64,000 nucleotides of DNA from Celeribacter ethanolicus. Lineage in GTDB: Bacteria > Pseudomonadota > Alphaproteobacteria > Rhodobacterales > Rhodobacteraceae. The stretch spans positions 62,001 through 126,000 of the forward strand of contig NZ_LRUC01000006.1 in NCBI RefSeq assembly GCF_001550095.1, written 5' to 3'. A model generated the notes under the pieces. The model was not told the origin of the DNA. It did not search any database and was given only the letters and a program-made list of their open reading frames with translations. Position numbers and translations under genes: made by a program. Shown in pieces: positions 37,309 to 40,878 of this stretch. The first letter of the stretch is position 1. Each line of letters starts with the position of its first letter.

Positions 37309-38319
37309 TCAGTCGAAAGTGCCGGTCACGCGGCCCAGCAACATGAACCCGCGCGCGGTGCGGGTGTCGGTCAGAGCGGCGATTTCTTCATCCGTGGCGG
37401 AGTGTTCGAACTCGGCGAAGGTCTTGTCGAACTTGCGCAGGAAATGGTGCACCGCATCGCGGAAGATCGCGTCCTGTTTCATTCGCGCAGAGGCCAGAGC
37501 CAGAGACGACCGGTCGCGCACGCCGCCAAGCGGGGCGACGGCATGGCCGCGCTCGCCCTTGGCGAACCGGCGCCAGACTTCGGGCTTGGCGCGGTCCGGG
37601 CGCAGATCGTCCATGTAGATACCGTCCTGCGACAGCAGCGTGAGCACGTCCTGCGCCGCATGGATGAGCTGGCTGACCTTGCGATCCGAGAGTGCTCGGC
37701 GCAGCGCCCGGAAGCCTTCCTTGTCATCGGCGGTTTCGGGGAAATTCATCGCCTTGATGAAATCCGCGACCGACAGCGGCGGCGCGAGGCTTTCCGAGGG
37801 CGTGCCGAGCGCAAGGCTCGCCTGTTCCTCGACAAGCATGGGCGCCGGGATTGCGAGCTTGTCCTCCGGCGGCGTCTGGCCGGGACGGATCGAGGTGAAC
37901 ATCGCCAGTGTCGATTCGGTCTTGCGTTGGGCTGCGGCGATCTCTTCGAGTTTCTTCTCGACCGTGGCGTTCGAGGTGCCACCGCCCTGACCGGAGAGAT
38001 AGGACTGGCGCATGGCGGAAATCGCGGCCTGGAGCCGACGGCTTTCCTCGCGCATCGTGCGCGATGCGCGCACGGCCAGCGCGCCGACCCAGATCATCGC
38101 AATCGGCATGAAAATCGCGATCAGGATCATCACGAAACGGATCGAGGCCAAATCGTCCGGATCGGAGCCGGAGCTTGCAATCATGAAATAGCCGGATGTC
38201 AGCGCCAGCCATACCAGAGAGAGCACCGCGGCGATCATCTCCGTCGCGGTGATCCTGGGTTCTTCCTCGGGGCGCTGATAGACGCCCAGTTCGACTTTTT
38301 TGGGACCTTCGGTTGCCAA
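37309..38319 (-). CDS. membrane protein with coiled coil, function unknown
   Basis: 336 residues. Two membrane segments (about 26-47 and 61-82), then a coiled-coil stretch (SRRLQAAISAMRQSY and KKLEEIAAAQRKTE) and a C-terminal helical domain of about 150 residues (VSQLIHAAQDVLTLLSQDGI, RRFAKGERG, RDAVHHFLRKFDKTFAEFE). I do not know the family. The start is a TTG at 38319, supported by GAGGAG six bases upstream; no ATG is nearby. It lies 27 bp downstream of greA on the same strand. Confidence 0.82.
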   Translation of the reverse strand: MATEGPKKVELGVYQRPEEEPRITATEMIAAVLSLVWLALTSGYFMIASSGSDPDDLASIRFVMILIAIFMPIAMIWVGALAVRASRTMREESRRLQAAISAMRQSYLSGQGGGTSNATVEKKLEEIAAAQRKTESTLAMFTSIRPGQTPPEDKLAIPAPMLVEEQASLALGTPSESLAPPLSVADFIKAMNFPETADDKEGFRALRRALSDRKVSQLIHAAQDVLTLLSQDGIYMDDLRPDRAKPEVWRRFAKGERGHAVAPLGGVRDRSSLALASARMKQDAIFRDAVHHFLRKFDKTFAEFEHSATDEEIAALTDTRTARGFMLLGRVTGTFD

Positions 38320-38346
38320 AGGGATCTCCTCGACCGCGTTTACAAA

Positions 38347-38817
38347 TCAGATATACGCGATCTTGAGGATTTCGTAGGACTTTTCGCCGCCAGGGGTGCG
38401 CACTTCGACGCTGTCGCCTTCGTCCTTGCCGATCAGGGCGCGAGCGAGCGGAGATTTGATGTTCAGAAGACCGCGTTCGATGTCGGCTTCGTGCTCGCCG
38501 ACGATCTGATAGGTCTTTTCCTCATCCGTGTCCTCGTCGACGATGGTCACCGTGGCGGCAAATTTCACCGCGCCGGAGAGGGTTTTCGGGTCAATCACAT
38601 CGGTCAGCGACAGGATGCCTTCAAGCTCCTTGATCCGGCCCTCGATGAAGCTCTGTTTCTCACGCGCCGAATGGTATTCGGCATTCTCCGAGAGATCGCC
38701 AAGCTCGCGGGCTTCGGCAATGGCCTGAATGATCGCCGGGCGTTCGACGGATTTCAGGGTTTTCAGCTCGTCGTTCAGCGCGGTGTAGCCCGCGCGGGTC
38801 ATGAGGATCTTTTCCAT
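38347..38817 (-). CDS. greA: transcription elongation factor GreA
   Basis: 156-residue factor that rescues backtracked RNA polymerase by stimulating transcript cleavage. The N-terminal coiled coil holds the acidic tip [17 protein letters not shown]; the C-terminal FKBP-like domain has [21 protein letters not shown] choose ATG 38817 ([11 protein letters not shown]), the usual family start. In-frame ATG 38829 and GTG 38835 would add four or six residues. A strong terminator hairpin lies just upstream, so expression may depend on read-through. Confidence 0.96.
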
Positions 38818-38836
38818 CAGGGCACTCATCTGCACG

Positions 38837-38872
38837 AAAAAAGCACTGCGGGGCCGTCTGGCCCCGGGTGCT
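38837..38872 (-). terminator. intrinsic terminator in the greA leader
   Basis: On the - strand: AGCAC / GTGCT outer stem (5 pairs), a small bulge, then a 7-bp GC stem ending in GGGGCC / GGCCCC with a 4-nt loop, followed directly by six T (38842-38837). The last T is 20 bp upstream of the greA ATG. No leftward gene lies upstream before 39226, so it terminates a leader transcript, not a preceding gene. Confidence 0.8.
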
Positions 38873-39160
38873 CTCAGGTTTTGTCATTGTCGGACTACCT
38901 GACCCGGAACGGGGGAGCATTGCAAGGGGGCAGTGTGCGGTTTGTCGCCCTAGTGCCGGAAAATCGCCGCCCACCACATGTCTTTGCTTGGAGCGGCCTG
39001 CGACAAAGCCCCCCCGATTCTCGATGGTTCCGGTCTCGCAAGCCGTCCGTATTGCAGGCAGTTTTCGGAGGGAGGTTAACGCGTGTCGCATTTTTTGCCT
39101 TCCGGCGAGTTTTTCTGCGTCGTGGGGCCTTCCGGACGTTACGAAATCGTGTCGCGCAAA
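38873..39160. other. non-coding region between greA and ETF-QO
   Basis: About 290 bp, no credible gene on either strand. Leftward transcription from here would give a leader of up to 350 nt ending at the terminator before greA. An 8-bp inverted repeat, TTTGTCGC at 38941-38948 and GCGACAAA at 39000-39007, could fold into a stem-loop. Poly-T runs occur near 39090-39120. I could not define a greA promoter. Confidence 0.5.
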
Positions 39161-39189
39161 TTGACCAGACCTCACATCGGGGTTACTTA
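39161..39189 (+). promoter_or_regulatory. sigma-70-type promoter for the ETF-QO gene
   Basis: TTGACC (39161-39166), 17-bp spacer, TACTTA (39184-39189). Start near 39196 leaves a leader of about 30 nt with GGGAG at 39214-39218 before the ATG at 39226. Confidence 0.5.
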
Positions 39190-39225
39190 GGCCTTCAATC
39201 ACCGCCTGAGCCAGGGAGAACAAAG

Positions 39226-40878
39226 ATGTCAGCAATCGAGCGTGAGGCGATGGAATATGACGTTGTGATCGTTGGGGCAGGGCCTGCCGGCCTGTCCGCT
39301 GCGATCCGTTTGAAGCAACTGGATGCCGATCTGAGCGTCGTCGTGTTGGAAAAAGGCTCCGAAGTTGGCGCACATATTCTCTCCGGCGCGGTGCTCGATC
39401 CGGTGGGGCTGAACGCTTTGATTCCGGATTGGAAAGAGCGTGGCGCGCCGATCACCACTGAGGTGAAGGAAGATCATTTCCATGTGTTGGGCGAAGCCGG
39501 TTCGATCCGCATCCCGAACTTCCCTCTGCCGCCTCTGATGTCGAACCACGGCAAATACATCGTGTCGATGGGCAATGTTTGCCGCTGGATGGCGGAGCAG
39601 GCTGAGGAACTGGGCGTCGAGATTTTCCCGGGCATGGCGTGCTCTGAGCTGGTTTATGGTGACAATGGCGAGGTCAAAGGCGTCGTTGCCGGTGTTTTCG
39701 GGCTTGAGGCCGACGGCACCATCGGGCCGGACACCGAGCCGGGGATGGAGTTGCACGGCAAATACGTGCTGATTTCCGAGGGCGTGCGCGGATCTCTGGC
39801 GAAAGAGATCATCGCGAAATACGACCTGCAAAAAGGCCGCGACGTGCAGAAATTCGGTCTCGGCATGAAAGAGATCTGGGAGATCGACCCCGAGAAGCAC
39901 CGCGAAGGCAAGGTCTGGCACTCGATGGGCTGGCCTCTGGGGTCGAACGCGGGTGGTGGTGGCTTTGTCTACCACGCGGAAAACAATCAGCTTTATCTGG
40001 GGTTCGTGGTGCACCTGAACTACAAGAACCCCTACCTCTTCCCCTATATGGAATTCCAGCGCTTCAAACAGCACCCGCTGGTGAAGGAGCTTTTGGAGGG
40101 CGGCAAACGCGTCGCTTACGGCGCGCGCGCGATCTCCGAAGGCGGCTATCAGTCGATGCCGAAAGCGGTGTTTCCGGGTGGCGCTTTGCTCGGCTGTTCC
40201 GTCGGCCTCGTCAACGTGCCGCGGATCAAGGGCAACCACAACGCGATGCTGTCGGGCAAAGCGGCGGCGGAGCATGCCTTTGCCGCCATTCAAGAGGGGC
40301 GCTCCGGCGACACGCTTGAAGGCTACGAGACCGAATTGCGGACCGGTGCGGTCGGCAAGGATCTGAAGCGTGTGCGCAACGTCAAACCGCTATGGTCGAA
40401 GTTCGGCCTCACCGCGTCGCTGGCCTTGGGTGGCTTCGACATGTGGACCAACCAACTCTTTGGCGTGTCGCTGTTCGGCACGGTGAAACACGGCAAGACC
40501 GACGCGCAATCGACCGGCAAGGTGGCGAAGTTCAAGCCGATCGACTATCCGAAACCCGATGGTGTGATCTCGTTCGACCGGCTCACCAACGTGTCCTTCG
40601 CGGCGACGAACCACGAGGAAAGTCAGCCCTGTCACCTGAAACTCAAGGACCCGCAGGTGGCCATCGACGTCGATTACAAGGAATTCGGCGGTCCGTCGCA
40701 GCGCTATTGCCCGGCGGGCGTCTACGAATATCTGACGCCCGAAGGAGAAGAGCCGAAGTTCGTGATCAACTTCCAGAACTGCGTGCACTGCAAGACCTGC
40801 GACATCAAGGAAACCAGCCAGAACATCACCTGGACGGTGCCCCAAGGCGGCGACGGCCCGAACTATCCGAACATGTAA
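39226..40878 (+). CDS. electron-transfer flavoprotein:ubiquinone oxidoreductase
   Basis: 550-residue membrane-associated FAD/4Fe-4S enzyme that passes electrons from reduced ETF (fed by acyl-CoA dehydrogenases) to ubiquinone. FAD-binding VVIVGAGPAGLSAAIRL starts near residue 12; a later GGYQSMPKAVFPGGALLGCS belongs to the FAD domain. The C-terminal cluster has CPAGVYEY and NCVHCKTCDIK. The frame is open far upstream (to about 37160), but MSAIEREAMEYDVV with GGGAG ahead is the family start. Ends at a clear terminator. Confidence 0.96.
   Translation: MSAIEREAMEYDVVIVGAGPAGLSAAIRLKQLDADLSVVVLEKGSEVGAHILSGAVLDPVGLNALIPDWKERGAPITTEVKEDHFHVLGEAGSIRIPNFPLPPLMSNHGKYIVSMGNVCRWMAEQAEELGVEIFPGMACSELVYGDNGEVKGVVAGVFGLEADGTIGPDTEPGMELHGKYVLISEGVRGSLAKEIIAKYDLQKGRDVQKFGLGMKEIWEIDPEKHREGKVWHSMGWPLGSNAGGGGFVYHAENNQLYLGFVVHLNYKNPYLFPYMEFQRFKQHPLVKELLEGGKRVAYGARAISEGGYQSMPKAVFPGGALLGCSVGLVNVPRIKGNHNAMLSGKAAAEHAFAAIQEGRSGDTLEGYETELRTGAVGKDLKRVRNVKPLWSKFGLTASLALGGFDMWTNQLFGVSLFGTVKHGKTDAQSTGKVAKFKPIDYPKPDGVISFDRLTNVSFAATNHEESQPCHLKLKDPQVAIDVDYKEFGGPSQRYCPAGVYEYLTPEGEEPKFVINFQNCVHCKTCDIKETSQNITWTVPQGGDGPNYPNM

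Follow-up and report, generated by a model that had tools for sequence, protein, structure and literature searches.

Why should a strong intrinsic terminator stand directly upstream of greA and point into the gene? This question is raised by a stretch of 64,000 nucleotides from Celeribacter ethanolicus (hereafter the window, meaning the whole stretch of DNA analysed), in which the following features lie next to one another.

38871-38843, minus strand: terminator hairpin GCAC-C-CGGGGCC-AGAC-GGCCCCG-CA-GTGC, supported by sequence, fold, score and covariation.
38842-38837, minus strand: T6 tract (TTTTTT) of the terminator, read from the sequence.
38347..38817, minus strand: greA coding sequence, with its ATG at 38817-38815 and a product (MEKILMT...) that Pfam assigns to GreA.

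The last T of the T6 tract lies 19 nt before the greA ATG at 38817, and a second in-frame ATG is present at 38829. The region 38880-38832 has a folding energy of -25.6 kcal/mol (z -3.77), with 1 of 200 shuffles equally or more stable. When terminators were scored across both strands of the 64-kb window with a d'Aubenton-Carafa-type score, a score above 0 being taken as a pass, the greA site reached 34.9 and ranked fourth among 25 sites above 0. Six sites in the window score above 30, and five of these (all but the greA site) lie no more than about 60 nt past an ORF stop codon on one or other strand, the adjoining ORFs having been judged by length and look rather than by annotation; the greA site is the sole one of the six without an adjoining gene end. 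The original prediction, that a GC stem with six T stands directly upstream of greA on the greA strand with no gene before it, is therefore confirmed by sequence, fold, score and gene order.

One answer to the question would be that the hairpin simply terminates the transcript of a gene lying upstream or on the antisense strand, and in other alphaproteobacteria carB can indeed finish shortly ahead of such a terminator, with greA following. In the window, however, the nearest upstream gene is a divergent ETF-ubiquinone oxidoreductase on the plus strand (39226-40878, identified with Pfam), and no same-strand gene ends before the greA hairpin, as is expected of an attenuator. The longest upstream frame likewise lies on the opposite strand in 19 of 20 loci of the genus, where 12 such frames encode an ETF-ubiquinone oxidoreductase and seven encode a PAP2-like membrane protein, these names being read from the sequences, with Pfam run only for the window's ETF-ubiquinone oxidoreductase. 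The loci in which the PAP2-like protein replaces the oxidoreductase as divergent neighbor are L003-L006, L011, L018, and L020; in L017 a same-strand PAP2-like frame ends at -182. Because the hairpin persists while the identity of the neighbor changes, it belongs with greA. Furthermore, a promoter-like pair of elements stands between the upstream gene and the hairpin. For the window genome the gene order thus contradicts a 3' terminator, an explanation that we consider extremely improbable.

The promoter-like pair defines a putative leader RNA, for which we list the following features.

38920..38925, minus strand: TTGCAA, the -35-like element of a putative promoter for greA, from conservation and spacing.
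38897..38902, minus strand: -10-like element TCAGGT of the proposed greA promoter, likewise from conservation and spacing.
38887..38891, minus strand: predicted transcription start at about 38889, placed 7-8 nt past the -10-like element.
38837..38889, minus strand: predicted short leader RNA of about 53 nt, computed from the promoter and T-tract positions.

Read along the minus strand, the order is TTGCAA, 17 nt, TCAGGT, an A/C-rich segment, the stem, TTTTTT, CGTGCAGATGAGTGCCCTG and ATG GAA AAG of greA. A pair of the TTGCAA/TCAGGT type with exactly 17 nt of spacing was found by regular expression in 18 of the 20 genus loci; by eye, L015 carries a similar promoter-like pair and L021 a poorer one. 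Beyond the genus, CTTGCA occurs at -150..-60 in 95 of 171 loci of the family vs. 6 of 171 at -300..-210, and 45 of 171 carry GGTCAGGT within 180 nt of greA vs. none at -300..-180. An E. coli-type promoter scan misses the pair, so the proposed promoter rests on conservation; TCAGGT agrees poorly with the -10 element of E. coli. A transcription start within 38836-38818, between the T tract and the gene, would speak against the original prediction; the same scan finds none there, but, since it also misses the proposed promoter, it answers the point only weakly. The terminator itself lies within the greA leader as anticipated, its GC stem and T tract standing on the greA strand between the gene and a promoter-like pair proposed from conservation.

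The arrangement is maintained among close relatives. greA was found in all 20 genomes of the genus (Celeribacter/Pacificibacter), and a hairpin lies directly before it in 19 of the 20 loci, L015 being the one without. The terminator score is above 0 in 17 of 20 loci, compared with a mean of 0.1 and a maximum of 1 in 50 rounds of shuffling. Of the 19 hairpins, 17 have five or more T after the stem; in L016 and L017 the hairpin is present and is followed by GTTTT or TATT, and these two loci do not pass the score. Thus a loss of the hairpin in close relatives, which would have counted against the prediction, was not what we observed. The L015 genome (G006) has a size of 2.0 Mb and is 85% complete, in comparison with 3.1-5.0 Mb for the rest of the genus.

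Covariation further indicates that the stem is maintained as a structure. In an alignment of 19 sequences (A2), 10 of 15 base pairs have changed on both sides, and 40 alignment cells show both-side changes vs. a shuffle mean of 13.8, with none of 500 shuffles as high. Of the stem cells, 87.1% are paired, a value again reached by none of 500 shuffles and to be set against 31.5-58.0% in slid controls, although a single member of the aligned set supplied the structure, whereby the slid control leans towards it. L015 is absent from this alignment and from two further ones (A3 and A4); A3 also lacks L008 and L021, while A4 and the covariance model built from it (R1) also omit L008, L016, L017, L018, L020, and L021, leaving 13 genus sequences. 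RNAalifold on A3 proposed a 3-bp helix spanning the T tract; three sequences break it and four rows are poorly aligned, and it was not used. The window hairpin has a 1x2 internal loop at a position where, in 15 of the 19 sequences from the genus, just one base is bulged out of the 3' arm. Unpaired 3'-side stem bases thus number one in those 15 sequences, two in the window, L002 and L021 (in L021 elsewhere in the stem) and none in L008; such recurrent unpaired bases may make termination less efficient and let a share of the polymerases through.

Taken together, these observations lead us to regard the hairpin and T tract, with good though not full confidence, as a premature intrinsic terminator, that is, a transcription attenuator, in the greA 5' leader. 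RNA polymerase would start near 38889 at the conserved putative promoter, and the first RNA made would be an A/C-rich stretch of about 15 nt lacking structure, followed by the terminator. A part of the polymerases would then halt at about 38837 and release the predicted RNA of about 53 nt, while the remaining polymerases would pass the terminator and yield greA mRNA. Promoter activity, partial termination and the short RNA are all inferred here. The predicted length of the terminated RNA has a range of 42-58 nt and a mean of 52.5 nt among 19 genus sequences, the values for L016 and L017 omitting part of their broken T tracts.

What might control such an attenuator? Any control would most likely act through the state of the elongation complex, set by GreA activity as in E. 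coli or by another factor. The 5' part of the leader is unpaired in the folds, and the RNA preceding the 3' arm of the stem folds weakly, with energies between 0 and -4.4 kcal/mol across 19 leaders of the genus; no competing helix common to these leaders was noted in the folds made before the 3' arm, which were compared by their energies only. A conserved and mutually exclusive upstream structure, the mark of a classic attenuator, is accordingly not seen in the genus greA leaders, and no aptamer is recognizable in the 19. Because no alternative switching structure was found, control is most likely exerted through the elongation complex and not through a riboswitch-like antiterminator. A leader peptide was also considered and rejected, as congeners do not share the ATG that the 5' segment of the window's leader contains.

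The lack of a visible antiterminator or aptamer also fits a terminator that is not regulated at all and cuts greA expression by a constant factor. The sequences of the greA leader hairpins vary between lineages and genera, which is expected if termination strength alone matters. However, a weaker promoter would suffice for that purpose, and fixed damping leaves a conserved block after the T tract unexplained; on balance we find this explanation rather doubtful. The block is as follows.

38824..38836, minus strand: conserved block CGTGCAGATGAGT, identical in the 13 A4 sequences (13 of 20 genus loci).

The sequence TTTTTTCGTGCAGATGAGT is identical in the same 13 sequences, is more strongly conserved than the stem, and is altered in the remaining genus loci. 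The GTGC within CGTGCAGATGAGT repeats the GTGC of the stem 3' arm, and the 5' arm of the stem could therefore pair with either copy, which would matter only after read-through; the repeat may also be due to chance. An ATGAGTG in frame with greA is seen by eye in the window and most congeners, though not in L011, and is absent in L008. This motif may provide a start codon or a weak ribosome-binding site.

To place the genus in its wider setting, we scored 171 distinct greA leaders of the family. This set excludes the genus's own 20 loci, duplicates, three loci from outside the family (L026, L028, and L030), and L027 and L029, for which no start was found. The sample is biased to genera with a similar GreA, as it draws on 80 loci from the listed part of 394 matches and on the best 80 of 574. 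Thirty of the 171 leaders score above 0, compared with a shuffle mean of 1.45 and a maximum of 5 (20 rounds) and with 4, 8, and 2 of 171 in same-strand control windows further upstream, whereas 141, including that of Rhodobacter capsulatus (L209, score -54.7), do not pass. Leaders of Leisingera score 17-32. All counts refer to the interval -90..-1, in which terminators as distant as that of E. coli would be missed; in this respect the numbers for the family are minimum values. When the same intervals are scored on the antisense strand, 13 of 171 exceed 0, which indicates that part of the family signal reflects the hairpin alone. All 30 scoring leaders carry a motif of the CTTGCA or CTTGAA type upstream of the hairpin, 26 of them found by regular expression and four (L064, L147, L151, and L154) by reading.

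These family data bear on whether the hairpin acts instead within the mRNA, on stability or on translation start, with the T tract being secondary. Strong folding is indeed more frequent in these leaders than in a control region, with z below -2 in 41 of 171 family leaders vs. 9 of 171 in the control window; by eye some leaders (L023, L058, and L084) have no T tract directly after the stem; and in the genus the T tract ends just 16-29 nt before the ATG. Against this stands the retention of at least five T after nearly every genus stem, as counted above, and we hold such an action in the mRNA to be unlikely. As a separate observation, L023, L058, L079, L084, and L094 have strong GC hairpins between a similar promoter motif and greA, often of the form CGCCCCG...CGGGGCG, and by eye the T tract does not follow the hairpin directly in any of the five.

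Elsewhere among the alphaproteobacteria the score exceeds 0 for 25 of 78 greA leaders (85 loci, seven dropped), with a shuffle mean of 1.5 and a maximum of 4 (10 rounds) and with 3, 1, and 0 in control windows. For 14 of these 25, an open frame of 100 codons or more on the same strand stops between -60 and -100, and in the three that were read, L241, L242, and L251, that frame is CarB, the terminator-like hairpin lying between carB and greA. Such terminators may just end carB and are therefore not counted as attenuators. On a tree of 96 greA sequences, 32 of them positive, the terminator label must change 13 times or more, which suggests that presence of the terminator is evolutionarily labile, as far as one short gene viewed apart from a shuffled comparison can tell.

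The R1 model, built from the 13 genus leaders of A4, addressed whether related sequences occur away from greA, as might be the case if the leader were mainly a trans-acting small RNA and its terminator only incidentally placed before greA. The leader has its own promoter motif and terminator and a predicted length of about 53 nt, and in E. coli the product of the greA leader terminator, GraL, acts in trans on nudE (PMC6829880). Its 5' segment, however, is short and variable, and in the 20 genus genomes all 13 R1 matches of at least 65 bits lie at greA, all of them the model's own training sequences, with two further weak matches at greA (G011 and G010) and a best match elsewhere of 29.1 bits (G010). 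Within 394 family genomes, R1 gave weak matches (E 9e-7 to 9e-4) in 19 genomes outside the genus besides that of the window; none coincided with greA in the nine genomes compared, and we take these 19 to be ordinary terminators. A mainly trans-acting role is thus quite improbable in our estimation.

The preferred reading, a transcription attenuator, can be compared with the greA leader of E. coli. There, about one third of transcripts read through the leader terminator, and GreA represses greA via the leader, for which catalytically active GreA is required; this autoregulation is reported in vivo and not in vitro, and it depends on the sequence of leader and hairpin (PMC6829880). By analogy, active GreA could raise termination at its own leader hairpin in the window genome as well and hold greA mRNA constant, a refinement of the attenuator reading that does not exclude it. 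The gene and the order of promoter, terminator and gene are those of E. coli, the promoter here being the proposed one; the predicted 53-nt RNA (42-58 nt in the genus) would be similar in length to the 49-59 nt of the E. coli RNA from P1 (PMC6829880), about 37-59 nt being the range for GraL; and no other sensor is visible in the leader. On the other side, the E. coli leader family (RF01769) is unmatched, and the reported effect in E. coli, seen only in vivo, is tied to leader and hairpin sequences not shared here (PMC6829880). We therefore treat GreA feedback on this leader as plausible by analogy and speculative, a possibility to which we give somewhat less than even weight.

The two leaders differ in their distance from the gene. 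Whereas in the window only 19 nt separate the T tract from the ATG, the E. coli T run lies at -101..-95 and the hairpin taken for that of GraL at -130..-104, so that the window hairpin is far closer to the start codon. The same scorer detects the E. coli terminator, at 15.5 with 130-200 nt scanned, vs. 34.9 in the window. None of 11 genomes, that of the window included, matches the RF01769 covariance model, which in the control matched only E. coli among 14 genomes, and RF01769 is absent among Rfam matches with E up to 10 in 38300-39400. The sole Rfam match in that interval, to a xanthine riboswitch, is sub-threshold (E 0.23), lies on the other strand inside greA, and was taken as chance. The suggestion of an E. 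coli-like leader, either independent or conserved, thus holds for the shared layout, while no sequence relationship is detectable, and the two leaders may be either homologous or of independent origin. Autoregulation has been shown only in E. coli.

How the level of GreA is set is unsettled even there, given the discrepancy between in vivo and in vitro results (PMC6829880), and a second lineage with the same layout and no recognizable aptamer allows one to ask which features the feedback requires; leaders with, without and with weakened T tracts offer useful natural variants for this. A more general possibility is that greA has repeatedly come to stand behind a bare terminator near its start codon, with unrelated sequences in each lineage and no antiterminator, forming a minimal sensor: read-through would depend on how far the polymerase is backtracked or cleaving its RNA, a state set by GreA. 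We consider this generalization unlikely as it stands, but if it were true, the quickly changing hairpins of the Rhodobacteraceae would represent many natural replicates of one feedback loop.

Attenuation of greA-family genes has been described before. In the survey of Naville and Gautheret (2010, PMC2965389), greA/rnk is seventh among the attenuation-prone families, its attenuators ranging from Proteobacteria to Clostridia; greA- and rnk-leaders are described from Enterobacteria, Pseudomonas, Yersinia and bacilli. The main text of that paper names no Rhodobacter, Roseobacter or alphaproteobacteria ('alpha-proteobacteria' appears only in its references), the full lists being given in its supplements; among the literature matches listed, judged by titles and the beginnings of abstracts, there is no alphaproteobacterial greA leader, though one may have been listed before in supplements or transcriptome papers. 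Our leaders share with the published ones, which come from many lineages, a premature terminator ahead of a greA-family gene; they differ in that each published cluster has a clear antiterminator (PMC2965389), in contrast to the genus greA leaders, in which none was found. Alike in this respect is the rimP-leader, a terminator with no visible antiterminator before transcription-factor genes, for which a protein acting on termination was suggested (PMC2965389), although its conserved GGGc...gCCC stem signature is not seen in the greA leaders listed here. Attenuators before greA are therefore of a known kind, and what the Celeribacter leader adds is another lineage rather than a new mechanism.
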